This document shows, in pieces, positions 38,497 to 58,465 of a stretch of 64,000 bases of DNA. A program made the position numbers and the translations under genes. Positions within the stretch are counted from its first letter, which is position 1. Each line of letters starts with the position of its first letter. The stretch lies in the NCBI GenBank assembly GCA_016765295.1, contig JAESQF010000085.1, positions 1 through 64,000 of the forward strand. Reading direction: 5' to 3'. Origin of the DNA: Oleispira sp. Lineage in GTDB: Bacteria; Pseudomonadota; Gammaproteobacteria; Pseudomonadales; Oceanobacteraceae. The notes under the pieces were generated by a model that saw nothing but the letters and a program-made list of their open reading frames with translations, had not been told where the DNA came from and did no database searches.

Positions 38497-38796
38497 ATGG
38501 CATGTGATAGTAGTGGCAAGCTCGATTCTTTAGCGGCGGTAGATTTACCGGATGGCTGGCGAGTTGAGCAGCAAGATGAAGTCGATCATCTAATCAAACA
38601 GTACCGCTTCAAAAACTTTGTCAGTGCGATGCACTTTAGTAATGAAATTGCTGAACTAGCAGAAATCCATAATCATCATCCGATGATTATCACTGAATGG
38701 GGCAAGGTATCGCTGCATTGGTGGACTCATACCGCAAAAGGGATTACAGCATTGGATCTTAAGTTAGCCAGACTCTCTGATGATCTCACTGACTAA
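38497..38796 (+). CDS. phhB: Pterin-4a-carbinolamine dehydratase
   Basis: FVSAMHFSNEIAELAEIHNHHPMIITEWGKVSLHWWTHTAKGIT. Confidence 0.93.
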   Translation: MACDSSGKLDSLAAVDLPDGWRVEQQDEVDHLIKQYRFKNFVSAMHFSNEIAELAEIHNHHPMIITEWGKVSLHWWTHTAKGITALDLKLARLSDDLTD

Positions 38797-39136
38797 TACC
38801 AATGTAGTCGACCAACATAGCACTCCCTTCACAGCCATGAGATTTGATACTGACCTTGTATTGATGGTTCAACGCCGCGAGCACTAATTGAAACTTCCTC
38901 TCATTGACAACGTTATGATCGCTATAAGATCTATATCTATTCGACAGTTTTCCGCCACATTTATGTGTTTTTTGAGACGTAAAAAAGTCAAATCCTGGGG
39001 AGGATTCATCTTCTATTTGATAAATAGAAATGATTTTTAAATTATTCTTCGTTTTCTTATTTTGCTCGGCATAAAGCTGAGCCGTTGATGAAATACAACT
39101 GATAAAAACAAACGAAAATTGGATCAATAACTTCAT
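38786..39136 (-). CDS. Small secreted hypothetical protein
   Basis: Signal peptide; two Cys in mature region; convergent 11-bp overlap with phhB. Confidence 0.5.
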   Translation of the reverse strand: MKLLIQFSFVFISCISSTAQLYAEQNKKTKNNLKIISIYQIEDESSPGFDFFTSQKTHKCGGKLSNRYRSYSDHNVVNERKFQLVLAALNHQYKVSIKSHGCEGSAMLVDYIGISQ

Positions 39137-39252
39137 GAATTCTCCTGCTATAAATAGCTTAGCAAAAAATTGAGAATTTTCACCCGCAATAAAATACTGA
39201 ACTATGCTGACAACAAGGAAATAAGAAAAACATCAGGGTTAAAGGAATATTG

Positions 39253-40311
39253 ATGCTTGTTCGCATAATGAAGTACCTAAGTATTGCTCTTTTTAGCATG
39301 AATTTTGTATGGGCAGTAGGGCCAGATGATTCCTTTATGGCAGAGCCAGGGCCTACGTTATATACGGGATTTGAACAGTTATTAGATGACGATAAAACAC
39401 TTGTATTAGAGGAACTACTTGATCTTAATGAAAATATAAAACGCATTGCACTTTATCATAATGGCGATCGCCTACATCGATTAATACCCAAGCAAGTACA
39501 TCAAATGATTGAAAATAAGCTTATGGGACGCCTTATTGAAAGTGGGCGCTTCGAAGTTATTCAATGCATAGAGTGTCGTACAACAAAAGTTGAAATGACT
39601 GCTAATGAATTAAAAATCAGTCAGGCGGCAGAAAATAATCAGCAATTAAGAGCCTTGTCTAAGCAAGTAAGGGCCGATGCATTTATGTTTTGGAATGCCT
39701 CTGTTCATGATAATAAATTCACTATTAATTTACGTTTAATTGATGGTGCCAATAATCAATTGGTTTGGTTGAAAGAATACAGTAAACGCACGACCAAAGA
39801 AGCTGAAGACATGGACTTCAGTACGGTTCGATATGAAGTAATTGTCGGTGCTTGGGGAGTAGGAGGCAGTCGAAAAAATACAGTGGGAGGTAGTGATGCT
39901 GAGCTCACAGGGGTTACCGCTTTTGGTTTTCGTCGTAGAGAGAGCATGTCTATTAATGAGCATATTGAATATACCCTAGGTTTGGAATATTTTAGAAATT
40001 ATTCCGATACAGACTTATTTAATTTAAGTGGTTATAACTTAGAGGGTCGTATTATTGCGGGTATTCCGTCACTGGAAGATATTATTAAGACCAATGTTTA
40101 TCTCGGCATAGGGCAATCCTTCTTTAATAATGCCAATAGTTTGATCTTCCGTTTTGGTTTTGAATTTCCATTTTTTACCGACGGGTTTATGAACTTTGGT
40201 GCAATTGTCATGCAGGAAAGTGATGTCAAGTGGAAAGTAAATTCAAGCTATGAAGAAGCTGGAACATTTGGTGGTACTAGTTATGACCTTACCTTAGGCG
40301 TGAGATTTTAG
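39253..40311 (+). CDS. Predicted outer-membrane protein: CsgG/FlgO-like N-terminal domain plus C-terminal beta-barrel
   Basis: Signal peptide; MIENKLMGRLIESGRFEVIQ...VRADAFMFWNASVHDNKFTINLRLIDGANNQLVW; C-terminal alternating aromatic strands ending ...DLTLGVRF; ATG at 39253 with upstream AAAGGA. Confidence 0.65.
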   Translation: MLVRIMKYLSIALFSMNFVWAVGPDDSFMAEPGPTLYTGFEQLLDDDKTLVLEELLDLNENIKRIALYHNGDRLHRLIPKQVHQMIENKLMGRLIESGRFEVIQCIECRTTKVEMTANELKISQAAENNQQLRALSKQVRADAFMFWNASVHDNKFTINLRLIDGANNQLVWLKEYSKRTTKEAEDMDFSTVRYEVIVGAWGVGGSRKNTVGGSDAELTGVTAFGFRRRESMSINEHIEYTLGLEYFRNYSDTDLFNLSGYNLEGRIIAGIPSLEDIIKTNVYLGIGQSFFNNANSLIFRFGFEFPFFTDGFMNFGAIVMQESDVKWKVNSSYEEAGTFGGTSYDLTLGVRF

Positions 40312-40313
40312 GG

Positions 40314-41018
40314 ATGATTATGAAAATAATATTAACGTGCATTAGCATGATTATTCTAAGCGCTTGCACGTTAGAGCGCAGTAACAGAACACTGACACAG
40401 TATGGTGATAGCCAGCCTGACTGGACAATCAGTACAAGTGAAGCAAGTGTCGAAATAACAGATAAACAATTAGCTCAACGAAATGAAATAGCCAAGCTAG
40501 CGAAAAAAAGCCATGGCTTAATGCATATACATAGATTTGGCCCTGGATTTGACGTGCTGATGACGCTCGATGCCGGAGATAGCGATGTTATATTTAGTAT
40601 GAAATTGCCCGGGGGTAATGCCGATAAATTCGTGGAAGATGTATCCACGCTGGAGATCGCAGAAAAAAATAAGCAATTATTAGAAAGTCTTGATGACGAC
40701 AAGGCTGAACTGCATAGCAAAGAACTGGTGCAGCGAAACGAGATGATCGAGCAAAAAAAATTACAACAGTATCAGGCATCCACTCAGCATATTTTCAGTG
40801 CGCAGTCATTGTTCTATAAGAAACAGTACTGGAAATCACTGGATGAAACCAATAAAGCATTAGAGCTAGTCCCCACTTCGGCTCAGGCTTATGCTTTAAA
40901 AGGCAGTATTTATTATAAAATGGGGCTGAATGACGAAGCTAAAGTGAGCTGGCAGCAGGCGCTTGAAATCGATCCTAGTATGGATCAAGTAAAAACTAGC
41001 TTGGCACGGTTGAAATAG
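40314..41018 (+). CDS. Lipoprotein with C-terminal TPR
   Basis: Lipobox ILSAC; FYKKQYWKSLDETNKALELVPTSAQAYALKGSIYYKMGLNDEAKVSWQQALEIDP. Confidence 0.75.
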   Translation: MIMKIILTCISMIILSACTLERSNRTLTQYGDSQPDWTISTSEASVEITDKQLAQRNEIAKLAKKSHGLMHIHRFGPGFDVLMTLDAGDSDVIFSMKLPGGNADKFVEDVSTLEIAEKNKQLLESLDDDKAELHSKELVQRNEMIEQKKLQQYQASTQHIFSAQSLFYKKQYWKSLDETNKALELVPTSAQAYALKGSIYYKMGLNDEAKVSWQQALEIDPSMDQVKTSLARLK

Positions 41019-41027
41019 GAAAGATCA

Positions 41028-42968
41028 ATGAATACTAATAAAGCATCCTATACAAAATATATATTCATATTATTTATTGTTTTTTCATTTAATTCTGCAT
41101 TTACAGAAGAGCAAGGTAAGACATTTGAAGTGCCGGCTAAAAAGGACGAAATCGAAGAGGCGCGTTTTAAAAATGAGCTGGAAGCAAGACTGAATAGAGA
41201 TCTACAAGCCTATCTAGGTAATAATCGTTTTATTATTCATGTAGAAGCCGAGCTAAGGAAAACTCGGACGATTGTAAAAGAAACCGTAGTTTCTTCTCCA
41301 GTGAATATACCTGAAAGACCCGTATTTACCTCGCGTCCACTACCTGCTAAACCGCTGGTGAATAGAGGTCATGAAGTAGAAGAAAGTTTGCCAGGGTTGC
41401 CTACCAGTGATTTGCCTATATTTGAAGATAATAGTGATGAAGTAAACGCCTTAAAAGGTCGTGTTCAAGAATTAGTAAATGAGCGGCAACAAGCGTTAAG
41501 TTATGCGGAGAAATTACGCAAAGAAGCGGAAAAACAGATTAAAAAAATCAGAGAAAAAACTTTGGGTTATCGAAACTCAATAAAAAAATTAACGATAACA
41601 GTGGTGCTAGATAAAAACATTAAAGATCAGCAGGTTGAGTTTATACGCAGCCTTATTACCCGGAAGGCTCGATTAGATGAGCTGCGAGGGGATACGTTAA
41701 AAATAGTCAGAACAGAATTTAAAGGCTTAGCAGAAAGACCAGTTGTAGTAGATTGGTGGCAGCAATATCAAGGCTGGATTATGCTGCTATGTTTTGGCCT
41801 GATGATGTTGCTGCTGTTATTTGCGTTATATTTATTTAATAAGCGGTTAACAGAAAGTTTACGCGAGAATCAGCGTCGCAGTGAAAACTTTGATAATCTT
41901 ACCGTTCCCGCTGCAGTTGAAATGGCCCCATTAAAGAGTAGTGGCCGTGACGATAACGAACGCCGTCGCCAATTGAATGAAATGCGCCAAGAGCTAGTAA
42001 CGATTGGCCTTGGCCAGCCTAAATTATTTCAGCAGCGTATTGCTGAACAATTAACTAACGGCAATAGTCAGAATATCGTTGCCCTCTATGATGTGATGGG
42101 GAAAAGTCTATTTCGCAGCTTGTGCCCCAAAATTTCCAGTGAAGATTTAGACAGTTTAGTTGATCAGGCAGAGAGCCAGCCACTCGATAGTGAACAGAAG
42201 TTTTCTAGTTTGAATAACTTGCGTCAAGAGTTATTAAGGGCGCTAGGGGATGATGATAATGGCAATGAACCTTTTGCTTTTTTAGAAAAACTTAATGATT
42301 CACAAGTGTTATACCTGATAAAAGAAGAAGATACACGAATCAAGGCCTTACTATTGTCTCAGATGCTGTCAAAAAGAGCGGCGAGCATTATTCAACGTTT
42401 AGAAGGCCGTGAGCAATCAGCAGTCGCTTATGAACTTGGTGAATTTGAAACATTACCGGTATCAACCTTTAAAGATGTTGCCGATCGCTTAGCGAAAAAA
42501 TCGCTTAATGTCCCTAGTTTTGAAAATGTATCGGCTAATGGTCTAACCGTTTTGATTAATATGCTAGATACCATGAGCAGCGGTGAAGAAACTCGTTTAT
42601 TAAAAACGTTGAAAGCCGATAAACCCGAAACCTATTATCGTTTACGACAAGTTTATTATACATTTTCTGATCTTATGCGCACACCTGAAAGGGTGATCGC
42701 CAATGAATTGCGCGATATCGACCGATTGACAATGGCGCTTTCACTTTGTGGCGCACCGATAGAATTTAAACGCCATATTCTTGTAGGCTTGCCTACTAAA
42801 CTACGTTCATCGGTTATTTCAGAACTTAAAATCCAAGAAGGCCAGGCAGGGAAGGAGCAGATTGAACAAGCTCGAACCACAGTGGTTAGTAGTATGCGTG
42901 AAGTGTTAAAATCGGGTCGTTTTTCTATGGACGAATTAGTTGATACTAGTGCTAGTAGTGCAAATTAA
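41028..42968 (+). CDS. FliF-like periplasmic/TM segment fused to FliG-like rotor domains
   Basis: N-terminal TM/signal; RLNRDLQAYLGNNRFIIHVEAELRKTRT and IKKLTITVVLDKN...RGDTLKIVRTEF (FliF C-terminal style) then TM WIMLLCFGLMMLLLLFALYLF then FliG-like LRQVYYTFSDLMRTPERVIANELRDIDRLTMALSLCGAPIEFKRHILVGLPTKLRSSVISEL. Confidence 0.8.
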   Translation: MNTNKASYTKYIFILFIVFSFNSAFTEEQGKTFEVPAKKDEIEEARFKNELEARLNRDLQAYLGNNRFIIHVEAELRKTRTIVKETVVSSPVNIPERPVFTSRPLPAKPLVNRGHEVEESLPGLPTSDLPIFEDNSDEVNALKGRVQELVNERQQALSYAEKLRKEAEKQIKKIREKTLGYRNSIKKLTITVVLDKNIKDQQVEFIRSLITRKARLDELRGDTLKIVRTEFKGLAERPVVVDWWQQYQGWIMLLCFGLMMLLLLFALYLFNKRLTESLRENQRRSENFDNLTVPAAVEMAPLKSSGRDDNERRRQLNEMRQELVTIGLGQPKLFQQRIAEQLTNGNSQNIVALYDVMGKSLFRSLCPKISSEDLDSLVDQAESQPLDSEQKFSSLNNLRQELLRALGDDDNGNEPFAFLEKLNDSQVLYLIKEEDTRIKALLLSQMLSKRAASIIQRLEGREQSAVAYELGEFETLPVSTFKDVADRLAKKSLNVPSFENVSANGLTVLINMLDTMSSGEETRLLKTLKADKPETYYRLRQVYYTFSDLMRTPERVIANELRDIDRLTMALSLCGAPIEFKRHILVGLPTKLRSSVISELKIQEGQAGKEQIEQARTTVVSSMREVLKSGRFSMDELVDTSASSAN

Positions 42969-42976
42969 GGAGTGTT

Positions 42977-43780
42977 ATGAATCGTTTTTCTTTTAGTACC
43001 TTAGTCGGTATCAGCGCTGCGGTTAGCTTATTTATTTATGCCATCGTTTCCAGTACAGAAAATTATCTGATGTTTATCAGCGTATCAAGTTTTGCTTTGG
43101 TAGCGGGTAGCACGTTTGCTGCTTCATTAATTAGCTATACCACTCGGGATGTACTGATTGCGATGAAAGCATTAGCAGAAACCTTTTTTCATTCCCCGAC
43201 AAGTCCAAAATACTTACGAGCTCATGTTGAGCGTTTTGTAGAATGGAGCCAGATTTATCGCAGCGGCGGTATCTCTGCTTTAGAAATGTCACTGACCGAA
43301 AAAGAAAAAAAAGATCCCTTTCTTACTCACGGTATGGAGTTGTTAAGCAGCGGTCATAAAAATCACGATATAAGAACCATATTAACCGATGATATGGATG
43401 CTTTCTGGCAACGTATGACGGTGGAATCAAAAGTCTTAAATACCATGGCCGTCTATGCACCGGGCTTTGGCATGGTGGGTACCATTATTGGCTTAGTCAT
43501 TATGCTGGATAATATGAATGGTGATATGGCAGCATTAGGTAAAGGCCTATCTTTAGCACTGATTACTACCTTGTATGGAGTGGTATTAGCCAACCTCATT
43601 TTTAAACCTGCGGCCAATCAAGTAACAGAGAAACAAGAAGCGTTGTATTTTCGTGATCAAATATTGGTTGAGGGTTTTGTACTATTAGCTGAAAAGCGTG
43701 ATGCATTTTTTATCCAAGATCGACTCAATGCTTATCTTAATCCGAGCATGCGTCTGCAACCTGCAGAAGATAGCTTGTAA
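42977..43780 (+). CDS. MotA/PomA-like stator subunit
   Basis: SGGISALE...FLTHGMELLSSGHK, MAVYAPGFGMVGTIIGLVIMLDNM, ALGKGLSLALITTLYGVVLANLIFKPAAN. Confidence 0.92.
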   Translation: MNRFSFSTLVGISAAVSLFIYAIVSSTENYLMFISVSSFALVAGSTFAASLISYTTRDVLIAMKALAETFFHSPTSPKYLRAHVERFVEWSQIYRSGGISALEMSLTEKEKKDPFLTHGMELLSSGHKNHDIRTILTDDMDAFWQRMTVESKVLNTMAVYAPGFGMVGTIIGLVIMLDNMNGDMAALGKGLSLALITTLYGVVLANLIFKPAANQVTEKQEALYFRDQILVEGFVLLAEKRDAFFIQDRLNAYLNPSMRLQPAEDSL

Positions 43781-44460
43781 TGGAGGAATCCGTATCGAGT
43801 AAACACCGAGGTTTACGCCGTCGCCGTCCTAACTTTGATGACTCCTCGAGTTCATGGTTAATAACGTACTCTGATGCCATTACTTTATTACTCGCTTTTT
43901 TCGTTATGATTTTATCCGTATCAGATCTTAATCAAGGCAAGGTCGAAGCATTAAAAGAAGGCTTATCAGAAGCGATGACAGGAGAGGCACCACCAACCCC
44001 TTTTACGGATATTAAAGAGGGGCTGGAGCAGTTAATTGCGAAAAATGGTTTAGAGAACCAAGTATCCGTTACCTTAGATGCGAAGGGGGTGAAAATAGAA
44101 TTTGCCAATGTTGCTTTATATCAATCAGGTTCAGCAGATATCAAGCCAGAAGCTATTTCTACATTAAAAGAAGTGACTCGGGTTATACGAGAAACCAGTC
44201 ATAAGACTCACATGGTCGAAGTGGAGGGGCATACTGATGATGTTCCTATTCATACAGAAAAGTTTCCTTCCAATTGGGAGTTGTCATCAGTACGAGCAAC
44301 CAATGTTGTGAGATATTTATTAGCTCAAGGGATTGAAAAAGAGCGGCTAAAGGCTGTGGGTTATGCGGACAGTCGGCCAAAAGAAAATAGTAAAAACCTA
44401 CCCCTTAATCAACAGCGCCAAAATAATCGACGTATTGTTGTTTTTGTAAAACGATATTAG
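43780..44460 (+). CDS. MotB/PomB-like stator subunit with OmpA-type peptidoglycan-binding domain
   Basis: WLITYSDAITLLLAFFVMILSVSD (plug/TM with Asp), VEGHTDDVPI...NWELSSVRATNVVRYL. Confidence 0.93.
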   Translation: MEESVSSKHRGLRRRRPNFDDSSSSWLITYSDAITLLLAFFVMILSVSDLNQGKVEALKEGLSEAMTGEAPPTPFTDIKEGLEQLIAKNGLENQVSVTLDAKGVKIEFANVALYQSGSADIKPEAISTLKEVTRVIRETSHKTHMVEVEGHTDDVPIHTEKFPSNWELSSVRATNVVRYLLAQGIEKERLKAVGYADSRPKENSKNLPLNQQRQNNRRIVVFVKRY

Positions 44461-44605: not shown

Positions 44606-46507
44606 ATGGAACTCCTTCAAAAAAACGGTCTATATAAGGCCATGTTACTTGCGATGACAACCTCCATGTTAGTAGCATGTGGTTCTGATTCAGATGGCGA
44701 TGATGGTGGCGTGGGTGTTTCAGGCGCACAAGGATCTTCTGGTACTAGTGGTGATGATGGTATAAATGGTGCTGATGGTATAAATGGTGCTGATGGTATA
44801 AACGGCGAAGATGGTCAAAACGGTGCAGATGGTCAAAACGGCGCGCCTTCTAATGCGGGTTTAACGCGCCTAGCCCAAGCACCGATTGGCGCTGAATTTA
44901 CCGGTATGTATCTTAATGGTGATGGTACTTTTTTCATAAACGTTCAGCACCCTTCAACCGATAATACAAGCGAGAATTCACAGGGTCATACTTTCGATAA
45001 GGGGACGGTCGGTGTTGTAACGGGGGCCGATTTTAATAATTTGGGTAAAGTGGCTGCGCTGGATTTAGCCATCACGGATGCCGATAAAGAAGTTGTATCG
45101 ACAGCGGTAGGTAAGTACCAGGTTCTTTTACAGCAAAATGATGTACTGGAAGATGGCTTTACTGCAGGTGATATTGTTAAGAAAGACGGTACAACGTTAG
45201 TTAAAAATTCTAACGACCCAGATTTTAACGGTGTAGTACCTGATGGCAGCGGTGGCTATTACGTTTATACCAATTGGGAAGATCGCACGGGTGGTATGAG
45301 CCGTATTCAAATATCTGGTTTAGGCCCTGATGGCTACAGCCTGATTAAAAAAGAAGGCATGCTGGACTTCTCTTCCGTTGATGGCACATGGGTAAATTGT
45401 TTTGGTACGGTAACTCCATGGGGAACACCTATTTCAGCGGAAGAGTTGTATTACGATAATAGCGCTGACTGGTTTGATCCAACGTATAAGTACTTTGGTA
45501 ATGCCGTTGCCGTTGCGCAATACATGGGATACCCAGAAGACCAATCAGGTAATTGGGGAAATCCATATAACTATGGTTACAACGTAGAAGTAGGCACAGA
45601 TGGCACCGTTACTGAGGAGAATGTTGCTAATGTTGAAATAGAAAAACGTTTTGCCTTAGGTCGTTTCTCTCATGAAAATGCGGTAGTTATGCCCGATAAA
45701 CGCACAGTTTTCCAAAGTGATGATGGCAGCAATACTGTTTTCTTCAAATTTGTCGCAGATGTCGAGAGTGACTTGAGTGCGGGTACTTTGTACGCTGCTA
45801 AAGCGACTCAGGCGAGTAATACTTCGACCACTGCAGAAGCTGCATTTGGAATTGAATGGGTCATGTTAGGGGCAGGTAATGATGCTCAAATTGAAGCGTG
45901 GATTGATTCTTACGATGGTACTTTTGCAGAAGCAAAACATATCACCGATCAGCAGATCAACGATTGGGCAGAAGCTAAGCTTGGCAAAGATTTGGATGGC
46001 GTAAACGGTATCGCTGCTAGTCCATTCATGGATGATCGCCCAGCTTTTTTAGAAACACGAAAAGCCGCAAAAGCTTTGGGAGCCACTGCTGAATTTAATA
46101 AAATGGAAGGCGTAAACATTAATTATGACCTAGCTGAAACTTGGTGGAATGGTGGTGATGCTGATGGTGTGCAGGCCTATTCCTATATGGCGATGTCAAC
46201 GATCGGTGGTGGTATGACGGATGATGACGGCGCCATTCAAATTAATACGGCTCATGGTAGTTGTGGTGCTGTTTACCGTATGAAGCTAATTAAAAATGCT
46301 GCGGGTTTAGTTGATGTAAAAACGATGATTCCTGCAATCATTGGCGGTCCATACTTTGCTGATCGCGCGGTTAATGAGTGTGATGTTACCAATATATCAA
46401 ACCCAGATAACCTAGTTATCCTGAACGATGGTCGTGTATTAATTGGTGAAGATTCAGGCAACCATGAAAATAATATGGTGTGGGTATTTGATGATCCTGC
46501 GATCTGA
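44606..46507 (+). CDS. PhoX-like (DUF839) lipoprotein with collagen-like Gly-X-Y stretch
   Basis: Lipobox LVAC; GXY repeats; NCFGTVTPWGTPISAEE, GRFSHENAVVMPDKRTVFQSDDG, NPDNLVILNDGRVLIGED. Confidence 0.8.
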   Translation: MELLQKNGLYKAMLLAMTTSMLVACGSDSDGDDGGVGVSGAQGSSGTSGDDGINGADGINGADGINGEDGQNGADGQNGAPSNAGLTRLAQAPIGAEFTGMYLNGDGTFFINVQHPSTDNTSENSQGHTFDKGTVGVVTGADFNNLGKVAALDLAITDADKEVVSTAVGKYQVLLQQNDVLEDGFTAGDIVKKDGTTLVKNSNDPDFNGVVPDGSGGYYVYTNWEDRTGGMSRIQISGLGPDGYSLIKKEGMLDFSSVDGTWVNCFGTVTPWGTPISAEELYYDNSADWFDPTYKYFGNAVAVAQYMGYPEDQSGNWGNPYNYGYNVEVGTDGTVTEENVANVEIEKRFALGRFSHENAVVMPDKRTVFQSDDGSNTVFFKFVADVESDLSAGTLYAAKATQASNTSTTAEAAFGIEWVMLGAGNDAQIEAWIDSYDGTFAEAKHITDQQINDWAEAKLGKDLDGVNGIAASPFMDDRPAFLETRKAAKALGATAEFNKMEGVNINYDLAETWWNGGDADGVQAYSYMAMSTIGGGMTDDDGAIQINTAHGSCGAVYRMKLIKNAAGLVDVKTMIPAIIGGPYFADRAVNECDVTNISNPDNLVILNDGRVLIGEDSGNHENNMVWVFDDPAI

Positions 46508-46583: not shown

Positions 46584-48224
46584 ATGAAAGAGCTTGTATG
46601 CATATTGGTTCTGGCTGTCTTTATGGTTGGTTGTTCCGATACAGAAAGCGCTGAAAGTATTACATCTGATTACGAGTACTTATTTCCTTTAGAGGTGAAT
46701 AAGACTTCGAATAAAGAGGCTGTGATTCCTCCTCAGTGTTATACCAAGCATGAAGGTAAGTATAATCCCTGCATGGTATGCCATCAAAGCTATACCTTCG
46801 GTTCTCGTCCTAATGCCATGTCTGATGGCAACCTGCAAACAGCTTATGACTTTTCTGATTATGGTTTCAAGAATCATTGGCAAAATTTATTCGAAGATAG
46901 AACAAGTAGAATTAAAAAAATTAGTGATTTAAAAGTTAATAAATATATTTCAGAAGATAATTACACTCCCCTGATTGAAGATTTAAAAGCATCTGCCTGG
47001 GATGGAGTTATTCCTGAAATTGAGAATCTTCAAAAGGGTGCGCTAGCATTTGATGAATATGGATTCGCCATTGATGGCAGTCAGTGGGTCGCATTTAATT
47101 ACAAACCAATGCCTAGTACTTTCTGGCCGACTAATGGTTCAACAGATGATGTGATGATTAGATTGCCGATTGAATTTCGTATCAGTAGCTGCATAAATAT
47201 GTCAGAAAATAAGGATGTTTATATTGCGAATCTTGGTTTGTTAGAATTAGCAATTCAAGGGAAAGATGCTGTATCGATTCCTAATGTTGATGAAAGAAAT
47301 ATTTGTGATGATATTAATGGCGATGGTGAAATTACGAATAATGTTAGTCGCATCATTAAGCGGAAAAGTTATTTTGGTAATGCTGGCAATGTTGTAGTGC
47401 GAGATATGCTTTATCCACAAGGGACAGAGTTTTTACATTCAGTTCGATATGTTGGGGTGGATTCATACGGTGCCATTTACATTCCAGAGAGAATGAAAGA
47501 GCTGCGCTATATGGTCAAAACGAATGATTTTGATCAGTTATCGTTAAGCTCAATGTATGGTAACGAACAGCAAGAAAAAATTGATGGAAACCTTCCAACT
47601 TACAATTATAAAAAAACAGGTTCAGCCAATGAGTTTGGTTGGAAGCTGCTGGGTTTCATTGAAGATCATCAGGGGAGGTTACGTTTACAGAATCGAGAGG
47701 AGACAATGTTCTGTATGGGATGTCACAAAACGATTGGTACAACAATTGATCAAACATTTTCATTTCCAAGAAAAGTCTCTGGGGTCAATGGCTGGGGCTA
47801 TATTAATTTGAAGGGAATGATTGATGCACCTAATATTATCGGATCTACAGGCGGTGAAATTTTGAACTATCTCAAGGCAGTCGGGGGAGGTGATGAGTTT
47901 AGGCAGAATGATGAAATGATATCGCGCTGGTTCTCTACCGATGGAGAGGTTTTGGAAGATAAGGTCAATATGGCCGATGTGTATGAGTTGATTACTCCAA
48001 GCCCTGAAAGAGCATTGAAATTGAATAAGGCCTATTGGACGATCGTGTTAGATCAAGATTTCAATCACGGTCGTGATGCGAATATAACACCTGCTCGCAA
48101 TGTCTATAAAAGTATCGATGAGAATAGCCCAATATTAGCCGATAAACTTAGTAGGAAATATGATATCCGCTTACGCTGGGAAGAAGACGAGAAGGTTTTA
48201 ACCGATGACAGTGCTGGGCTATAG
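46584..48224 (+). CDS. Lipoprotein with two c-type heme motifs (CMVCH, CMGCH)
   Basis: Lipobox MVGC; two CxxCH motifs. Confidence 0.75.
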   Translation: MKELVCILVLAVFMVGCSDTESAESITSDYEYLFPLEVNKTSNKEAVIPPQCYTKHEGKYNPCMVCHQSYTFGSRPNAMSDGNLQTAYDFSDYGFKNHWQNLFEDRTSRIKKISDLKVNKYISEDNYTPLIEDLKASAWDGVIPEIENLQKGALAFDEYGFAIDGSQWVAFNYKPMPSTFWPTNGSTDDVMIRLPIEFRISSCINMSENKDVYIANLGLLELAIQGKDAVSIPNVDERNICDDINGDGEITNNVSRIIKRKSYFGNAGNVVVRDMLYPQGTEFLHSVRYVGVDSYGAIYIPERMKELRYMVKTNDFDQLSLSSMYGNEQQEKIDGNLPTYNYKKTGSANEFGWKLLGFIEDHQGRLRLQNREETMFCMGCHKTIGTTIDQTFSFPRKVSGVNGWGYINLKGMIDAPNIIGSTGGEILNYLKAVGGGDEFRQNDEMISRWFSTDGEVLEDKVNMADVYELITPSPERALKLNKAYWTIVLDQDFNHGRDANITPARNVYKSIDENSPILADKLSRKYDIRLRWEEDEKVLTDDSAGL

Positions 48225-55975: not shown

Positions 55976-58465
55976 ATGATGAAATCACCTTATTTAATCT
56001 TATTGGGAAGCACTTTTTTAATCACGCTGGGCAGTAGTCAGCTGGCCAGCGCTGATATTGCGGATATGGATAACGACGGTATTGCCGATCATATCGATAC
56101 CGACCGCGATGGTGATGGCCTTTCTAATTTTATGGAAACCGCCAGTGGCACCGATCCTGATGTTGCGGATCAATTCGATATGGATAATGACGGCATCCCT
56201 GATGCCATCGACTCTGATCAAGATGGCGACGGTGTTCTTGATAAAAACGATGATTTTCCACGAGACCCTAATAGCATACGCGATACCGATGGTGACGGAA
56301 TTCCTGACCATCGAGACAAAGATATCGATGGTGATCTAATTAGTAACGAGTATGAACAGCAGCTGGGTTACGAGGCTTATAATCGCCACAATACTCCTGT
56401 TGATCGCGATCATGATGGTATCCCTGATGTTCTTGATAGCGACATGGATAATGATGGATATGAAAATCATAACGATGATTTTCCATTATTAGCGTCAGAG
56501 TGGCGTGATCTTGATGGCGACGGCATTGGCGATAATGTTGATACGGATTGGGATGGTGATGGCATTAGTAACGAATGGGAGCAGAAGCTAAATTATGATC
56601 CACGAGATAAAAATAGCTTTCCTGTCGACCTAGACGGTGATGGCATTCCGGATAATGAAGATAATGACCGAGACGGCGATGGGGTTGCTGATAAAGATGA
56701 CCTCTACCCAGATGATGCAAAAGATTGGGCGGATATGGATAACGATGGCCTACCGGATAATCAAGACCAGGATACGGATGGCGATGGCATTCCAAATGTT
56801 TTTGAACTACACCTAGGTACCGACCCATTAAATGCCAGTGACTTCCCAAAAGACAGCGATAACGATTCAATGCCAGACGCGTTTGATATCGATCGAGATG
56901 GCGATGGTTATGTCAATAAATTTGATTTATTCCCAGATGATCCCAGTGAATGGGGAGATCTAGATCAAGACGGTATCGGCGATAATTCCGATCCTGACCG
57001 TGATAATGATGGCTACTCCAATGAGGATGAATTACTTGCCAATACCAGTGATCGGGATAGCGAAGATCGTCCAGAAGATTTAGATAGCGACGGTATTGCC
57101 GATGTCAGTGATGAGGATATAGACGGCGATGGCTACTTAAACAGTGTCGATGTATTCCCTTACAACAATAAAGACTGGTTAGATCTCGATGGCGATGGCA
57201 TTGGTGATAATGCCGATGGTGACCGAGATGGCGATAACATCAATAATGACTATGAATTACGCTTAGGCTTTGACCCTAACTCTGCCAAGAGTGTGCCAGC
57301 TGATTTGGATGGCGATGCGATTCCTGATGCTTTAGATCATGATATAGACGGCGACTTCATTGCCAATGCTTTAGACGTATTCCCATTGGATAAGAACGAG
57401 TGGTTAGATCATGACGCAGATGGCCAAGGGGATAATGCAGACCTTGACCGTGATGGCGATAACATCAGTAATGAATATGAAAAGATAATCGGTACCAATG
57501 ATCTCGATGCGCAAGATACCCCCGCGGATCTTGATGGTGATGGCATTCCTGACAGCCTGGATGATAATCGAGATGGTGATGATTACCTTAATAAAGAGGA
57601 TGTTTTCCCTGATAATAAAGCCGAGTGGGCTGACATGGATGGTGATGGTCGTGGGGATAACTCAGACTTAGATATCGATGGCGACAAAATCAGTAATAAA
57701 TTCGAACTTCAGCTTGGCTTCAATCCGCTAGATGCTAGTTCGACGCCGAAGGATATGGACAAGGACGAAATTCCTGATGCGCTTGATAGTGATAAAGATG
57801 GCGACGATGTTGCTAACCAACAAGATAAATTCCCTAGCGATCGTACTGAGTGGGCTGACATGGATGGTGATGGCATCGGTGACAATTCAGATTTAGATCG
57901 AGATGGCGACCGCATTAGCAACGACTATGAGCTAGCCCTTAAAACCGATCCTAATGATGCCGCTTCAACCCCAGCCGATATGGATGGTGATCGTATTCCT
58001 AATGCATTGGATGACGATCGTGATGGCGATAATATTATTAATAATGATGATGTCTTTCCTGATGATAACAAGGAGTGGGCAGATTTAGATGCCGATGGCA
58101 TCGGTGATAATAGTGATAAAGACCGTGATGGTGACGGTTACAATAATCGCTATGAAGTTGTAGAAAGAACGGACCCATCAGATGCGACGAGTTACCCAGA
58201 TAAAGTGACTCCCGTATTTGAAGGGGCCAGCTGGCAGGATGATAATACCCTAGTCGGTATGGCATTTGATGATGGTATGGGAGTCGATAAAATTTGGCTA
58301 GAGGATGAGTCGGGTAAGCAGTGGCCAGGTAAGTTCTTATATATGAGCCATTTTAAAATACCGTTCGAGGGCTCAGCTGAAGGTGAATTAACCCTAATAT
58401 TATTAGACAAGGCGGGCAATCGAACTCAGCAAGGAATAAGCGCTAGGCAAGCTAGTGCAGAATAA
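55976..58465 (+). CDS. Exported protein made of thrombospondin type 3-like calcium-binding repeats
   Basis: Signal peptide; many DxDGDGIxDxxDxDxDGDx repeats; distinct C-terminal domain VFEGASWQDDNTLVGMAFDDGMGVDKIWLED. Confidence 0.9.
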   Translation: MMKSPYLILLGSTFLITLGSSQLASADIADMDNDGIADHIDTDRDGDGLSNFMETASGTDPDVADQFDMDNDGIPDAIDSDQDGDGVLDKNDDFPRDPNSIRDTDGDGIPDHRDKDIDGDLISNEYEQQLGYEAYNRHNTPVDRDHDGIPDVLDSDMDNDGYENHNDDFPLLASEWRDLDGDGIGDNVDTDWDGDGISNEWEQKLNYDPRDKNSFPVDLDGDGIPDNEDNDRDGDGVADKDDLYPDDAKDWADMDNDGLPDNQDQDTDGDGIPNVFELHLGTDPLNASDFPKDSDNDSMPDAFDIDRDGDGYVNKFDLFPDDPSEWGDLDQDGIGDNSDPDRDNDGYSNEDELLANTSDRDSEDRPEDLDSDGIADVSDEDIDGDGYLNSVDVFPYNNKDWLDLDGDGIGDNADGDRDGDNINNDYELRLGFDPNSAKSVPADLDGDAIPDALDHDIDGDFIANALDVFPLDKNEWLDHDADGQGDNADLDRDGDNISNEYEKIIGTNDLDAQDTPADLDGDGIPDSLDDNRDGDDYLNKEDVFPDNKAEWADMDGDGRGDNSDLDIDGDKISNKFELQLGFNPLDASSTPKDMDKDEIPDALDSDKDGDDVANQQDKFPSDRTEWADMDGDGIGDNSDLDRDGDRISNDYELALKTDPNDAASTPADMDGDRIPNALDDDRDGDNIINNDDVFPDDNKEWADLDADGIGDNSDKDRDGDGYNNRYEVVERTDPSDATSYPDKVTPVFEGASWQDDNTLVGMAFDDGMGVDKIWLEDESGKQWPGKFLYMSHFKIPFEGSAEGELTLILLDKAGNRTQQGISARQASAE

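Follow-up and report, generated by a model that had tools for sequence, protein, structure and literature searches.

The closest described system to the locus analysed here is the flagellar motor, with its FliF MS-ring, FliG and the MotAB stator. Flagellar FliF comprises three ring-building motifs, RBM1, RBM2 and RBM3, and two transmembrane (TM) helices. Engineered or mutant proteins of Salmonella and Vibrio in which the FliF C-terminus is joined to FliG in one chain have been described (PMC6079021, PMC11481574), and engineered fusions of this kind assemble rings (PMC11481574, PMC6079021). Other systems, namely Agl–Glt gliding of Myxococcus (PMC3169522), GldLM (PMC8986121), Tol–Pal and Zorya, resemble the locus in a different respect: no flagellum is involved, and an ion-driven 5:2-type motor is proposed to reach through the envelope to its outer-membrane partners. 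We found no report of a FliF- or FliG-type rotor in any of these four, and no published case of a FliG–MotA rotor–stator pair outside the flagellum. For natural FliF–FliG fusions or a cassette containing one, our partial coverage of the literature returned engineered fusions only, so a prior description is possible; in a 2025 survey of how MotAB evolved, FliG is named once and FliF never (PMC12505986).

Here we describe a natural FliF–FliG fusion gene, and the genes around it, in a 64,000-nucleotide stretch of Oleispira sp. DNA (the window). The features are as follows.

39250..40311, + strand: outer-membrane beta-barrel protein with an N-terminal periplasmic FlgO/LpoB-like domain and an invariant CxxC (C106, C109) (AlphaFold, FlgO match, conservation)
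40314..41018, + strand: TPR lipoprotein with C-terminal TPR (Pfam TPR_1, 3.5e-10; lipobox Cys18)
41028..42968, + strand: FliF(RBM3)–TM–FliG fusion, proposed rotor (Pfam, profile, AlphaFold and structure matches)
41139..41723, + strand: FliF RBM3-like domain of the fusion, residues 38–232, with a predicted insertion (structure alignment to the FliF S-ring)
41772..41837, + strand: single TM helix of the fusion, residues ~249–270 (hydrophobicity; helix 240–284 in the AlphaFold model)
42258..42947, + strand: FliG middle and C-terminal domains of the fusion, residues 411–640, torque helix K591/E599 (Pfam, hmmsearch of the PDB, 8ucs)
42977..43780, + strand: MotA-like stator subunit (Pfam MotA_ExbB, 7e-25; PomA, 2.3e-30)
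43780..44460, + strand: MotB-like stator subunit with plug/TM and an OmpA-type peptidoglycan-binding domain (Pfam MotB_plug, 1.5e-14; OmpA, 8.6e-19)

A natural fusion of FliF RBM3 and FliG

An earlier note, made from the letters of the DNA, had read the ORF at 41028–42968 (+) as the C-terminal part of FliF and FliG in one protein. The ORF begins with ATG and runs for 646 codons (646 aa) with no internal stops, all the peptides quoted in that note are found in it, and concordant Pfam, profile and structure searches confirmed the fusion. Three Pfam domains scored above the gathering cut-off: YscJ_FliF_C at residues 59–231 (E 2.2e-7), FliG_M at residues 425–495 (E 1e-11) and FliG_C at residues 527–633 (E 4e-15). 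A profile built from 13 fusion relatives and run against the PDB (hmmsearch) matched FliG chains at 1.1e-18 and a FliF MS-ring chain at 4.1e-8. Against TIGR00207, the NCBI fliG equivalog, the fusion scored 62.2 bits, below the cut-off of 226.7.

Structure prediction, which the note had named as the check on its reading, recovered both an RBM3 and a FliG_C-type fold, with Z about 12–15 for each half. The AlphaFold model (single chain, built from 18 sequences; mean pLDDT 71, pTM 0.32) matched FliG (E 5e-11) and FliF RBM3/collar (E 3.6e-4) in Foldseek. With a second aligner, RBM3 (residues about 37–232) was superimposed on FliF S-ring structures at Z 12.4–13.9, mostly 2.1–2.6 Å over 93–99 residues (best alignment Z 13.9, 2.4 Å, 97 residues), and the FliG_C on MotAB-bound FliG (8ucs) at Z 13.2, 1.5 Å over 88 residues.

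The MS-ring likeness postulated in the earlier note holds for RBM3 but not for a whole MS-ring protein: RBM1 and RBM2 are absent from the fusion, which has one internal TM against the two of FliF, and only about 12 residues separate RBM3 from the N-terminal hydrophobic segment. That segment is present as the note had it, but looks like a cleavable signal peptide, to judge from AxA-like sites in most relatives; if it is one, the mature fusion would be single-pass. The one remaining TM, placed by the note near 41775–41840, falls at residues ~249–270 (window ~41772–41837). Between the first two strands of RBM3, where flagellar FliF has its collar, the model predicts coil and a long helix (residues 136–173). 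The TM is followed by a helical region (residues 305–410), then by FliG_M and FliG_C. In the helical region no FliG_N was recognised from sequence, and only full-length FliG alignments hint at one. The laboratory fusions of Salmonella and Vibrio are full-length, whereas this one is natural, lacks RBM1 and RBM2 and lies beside its own MotAB.

The fusion is encoded with a stator and two outer-membrane partners

The earlier note saw the fusion but overlooked three things: that FliF is reduced to RBM3, that motA and motB follow immediately, and that genes for outer-membrane partners precede it. The fusion is the third of the five same-strand genes listed above, a tight operon in which the intergenic gaps measure 2, 9 and 8 bases and motA and motB overlap by one base. 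Scans for a cassette promoter and terminator gave nothing clearly above chance.

The MotA and MotB proteins carry features of a flagellar-type stator, namely the Arg/Glu interface in MotA and the TM Asp, plug and OmpA anchor in MotB. Their nearest solved structures are PomA and MotB, respectively. MotA R95/E103 align with PomA R88/E96, and the ion-binding TM Asp of MotB lies in YSDAITLLL (MotB structures matched at 1.9e-30); both subunits score under the curated NCBIfam equivalog cut-offs. The flagellar motor likewise has RBM3, FliG_M/FliG_C and MotA/MotB, with the Asp in the TM and peptidoglycan anchoring through OmpA; the cassette differs in that FliF is cut to RBM3 and fused to FliG, and an outer-membrane barrel and a TPR lipoprotein are added.

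In the AlphaFold model of the first protein (39250–40311), the barrel matched OprF (Z 14.1) and OmpA (Z 12.7), and the N-domain matched LpoB (Z 9.6). FlgO matches were obtained for 4 of 8 members of this protein group (best E 9.3e-4). The periplasmic domain resembles LpoB and FlgO, the latter one of the proteins (FlgO/FlgP/FlgT) that form outer-membrane rings in Vibrio-type flagella, but is joined to an eight-strand-type outer-membrane barrel, not to a lipid anchor. In the TPR lipoprotein, the lipobox C18 is invariant in an alignment of 14 members. Compared with Agl–Glt, GldLM, Tol–Pal and Zorya, the cassette has a flagellar-type stator (plug and OmpA domain) and different partner genes; its Pfam matches give no hint of Glt proteins.

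Several other genes of the window also stood out. Just upstream and divergent (38786–39136, −) lies a gene for a small, secreted-looking protein of 116 aa with no Pfam match, kept in many loci of the family. Downstream, 44606–46507 (+) encodes a lipoprotein, a PhoX-type alkaline phosphatase whose N-terminus bears a collagen-like Gly-X-Y repeat. Its gene commonly, though not invariably, lies 3' of the cassette; some relatives have an unrelated collagen-repeat alkaline phosphatase in its place. The PhoX gene is followed by that of a lipoprotein-like protein of 546 aa (46584–48224, +) with the CxxCH motifs CMVCH and CMGCH, possibly a c-type cytochrome. We did not count the downstream genes among the cassette parts: the collagen-repeat PhoX/alkaline phosphatase and 46584–48224 vary by lineage, and the CTP synthase and enolase found downstream in Bermanella relatives are housekeeping genes. 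Farther along, 55976–58465 (+) encodes a protein of 829 aa, probably at the cell surface, that has calcium-binding repeats of thrombospondin type 3.

The cassette is conserved across gammaproteobacterial orders

We found the fusion in 18 other genomes of the 33 searched from the window's family (38–80% identity), with carriers including Thalassolituus maritimus and assemblies labelled Oleispira, Thalassolituus, Oceanobacter and Bermanella. It also occurs in one genome from another family of the order (G847) and in other gammaproteobacterial groups (G074, G106, G151 and four relatives of G106). A 398-genome sample of the phylum gave no further fusion matches at E<=1e-30, and a search of plasmids returned ordinary flagellar FliG only. 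All five genes stand together in 32 loci, the window included, if contig ends and the single internal stop of the G013 copy are tolerated; these loci come from relatives of Oleispira, Thalassolituus and Bermanella, from a second family in the same order and from two further gammaproteobacterial orders.

Two groups depart from the arrangement in the window. In the order of G106, the cassette is rearranged to motA–motB–barrel–TPR–fusion. There, a gene of ~510–525 aa lies directly 5' of motA (L061 12974–14545, L127 3011–4558, L128 3673–5199, L126 9125–10705) and is likely a sixth component of the cassette in that order; the copy in L061, the only one scanned, has Sel1 repeats and a SPOR domain. 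In G151, a divergent locus (L062 2660–6334) encodes a TPR lipoprotein, a 430-aa FliF-RBM3-like paralogue without FliG, a 789-aa FliF–FliG fusion and a Sel1 gene, and this 2.1-Mb genome gave no MotA match at E<=1e-8.

Conservation bears on whether the cassette could be a functionless relic, that is, a decayed fliF–fliG–motAB whose first two genes were fused through loss of a stop codon. In its favour, fliF and fliG adjoin in flagellar operons (Vibrio, PMC11481574), and one copy of the fusion, that of G013 (L037/L046), has a single premature in-frame TAG that leaves pieces of 558 aa and shorter, maybe a broken copy or a sequence error. Yet homologues of the fusion are 35–78% or, by another count, 35–80% identical across their full length, so neither a sequencing artefact nor chance accounts for it. 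In all five cassette genes, nonsynonymous change is far below synonymous change, the latter being saturated, so that dN/dS is mostly not computable. With five genes co-conserved in distant orders and a long, separate FliG clade as well, the relic reading is already contradicted, and we regard it as highly improbable.

Cassette FliGs are separate from flagellar FliGs

The locus holds no genes for FliM/FliN, the export apparatus, rod, hook or filament. The earlier note had proposed that the fusion dispenses with the FliM/FliN C-ring, and two lines of evidence support this. The EHPQ(R) motif of FliG, through which FliM is bound (PMC3091841), is present in 19/19 flagellar FliGs but in none of 20 cassette FliGs. 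FliM/FliN were found in neither G074 nor G151, both of which have the fusion; the other carriers tested have FlhA and FliM/FliN. FlhA likewise is absent in G074 and G151 and present in the remaining 21 of 23 carrier genomes tested. In G074 (93% complete), the sole FliG_M is that of the fusion and the sole MotA found is that of the cassette; because this assembly is fragmented (810 contigs), its missing flagellar genes are strong evidence, not proof.

The cassette could instead be an accessory of the ordinary flagellar motor, supplying an alternative stator and an extra rotor-like ring or adaptor docked on the flagellum, with the FlgO-like protein in the outer-membrane ring of the basal body. 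The prevalence of FlhA among carriers and the similarity of the barrel protein to FlgO would fit such a role. Against it stand G074 and G151, with the fusion but without FlhA and FliM/FliN, the reverse case of relatives that have flagellar FliG but no cassette (G007, G012), and the loss of EHPQ. In the window's own genome, moreover, fliG and flhA are found on contigs other than that of the cassette. We therefore judge an accessory role improbable. In the FliG tree, the cassette members group together with 100/100 support, and flagellar FliGs, including those encoded alongside them in a genome, fall outside. From the G074 and G151 data, the relatives with flagellar FliG but no cassette, EHPQ loss and the separate clade, we conclude that the cassette is not a broken flagellar operon, nor is it a part that the flagellum requires.

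Two observations belong with these genomes. The window's assembly (G000; 71.8% complete, 147 contigs) contains FlhA and FliM/FliN twice each (C13, C20), which suggests strain redundancy. A MotA of G012 clustered beside those of the cassettes but was rejected as a cassette member; it belongs to a stand-alone motAB pair, and the rotor and outer-membrane genes are absent.

Torque interface and proposed mechanism

In the flagellum, MotA R90/E98 pair with FliG D288/D289 and R281 (PMC12505986). Residue conservation suggests that this torque interface is partly kept in the cassette. On the rotor side, the position of E. coli R281 is basic in 19 of 20 cassette FliGs and that of D289 acidic in 14/20, while the D288 position is acidic in 7/20; equivalents of K264 and R297 are mostly not kept (n = 20), and the order of G106 has lost the acidic pair. 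On the stator side, an Arg in the role of E. coli R90 is found in all seven cassette MotAs compared and an acidic residue at the E98 position in six.

That the torque charges are not strictly conserved is one reason to consider a non-rotating envelope machine, in which RBM3 forms a static ring or channel (compare SpoIIIAG and T3SS ring proteins) and MotAB transmits force in the manner of TolQR/ExbBD. SpoIIIAG (Z 9.3) and proteins of PrgK/EscJ type (Z about 8) were further structural matches of RBM3, and the partnership with an outer-membrane protein and a TPR lipoprotein is reminiscent of energy-transducing systems. The match of RBM3 to FliF, however, is clearly better than that to SpoIIIAG; a complete FliG_M/FliG_C pair is kept and conserved, and MotB has the plug and the OmpA-type anchor known from flagellar stators. 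A non-rotating machine is an unlikely reading.

Gene content, domain folds, co-conservation and the absence of flagellar genes in one carrier are observed here. We think it probable that the five genes at 39250–44460 encode a stand-alone, ion-driven rotor–stator of flagellar type that acts on an outer-membrane complex, independent of FliM/FliN and the export apparatus. The presence of FlhA in most carriers, the torque charges that are not kept and G151, where the fusion occurs with no MotA match, speak against this reading. Ring assembly, rotation, outer-membrane coupling and biological role are what we infer for it. A MotA5–MotB2 stator, held to peptidoglycan by the OmpA domain of MotB, would turn using the ion gradient, and the cytoplasmic domain of MotA would engage the FliG_C torque helix of the fusion. 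The fusion would oligomerise through its periplasmic RBM3 into an S-ring-like ring; that engineered FliF–FliG fusions assemble rings speaks for this. As each FliG would be covalently tied to the ring, we propose that a FliM/FliN C-ring, RBM1/RBM2, rod and export gate are not needed. The periplasmic face of the ring may then move or energise the outer-membrane complex of barrel protein and TPR lipoprotein; the purpose may be surface motility, adhesion or envelope upkeep.

Whether the cassette represents an undescribed class of machine is a more evenly balanced question. It may, with about even chances, be a self-sufficient five-gene ion-driven rotary machine whose rotor ring is a one-protein FliF–FliG, working on the outer membrane without a flagellum, C-ring or secretion apparatus, possibly near a minimal or pre-flagellar rotor–stator, or else a captured flagellar rotor. 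If the stand-alone rotor–stator reading is true, a flagellar rotor would be able to work outside the flagellum, served by a stator of its own, free of FliM/FliN and with a single chain providing both rotor ring and torque ring. Such a cassette would offer a reduced system for structural study of torque transfer between MotA and FliG and would bear on the evolutionary assembly of the flagellar motor. It also suggests an as yet undescribed ion-driven process at the outer membrane in common marine bacteria, oil-degrading ones included.
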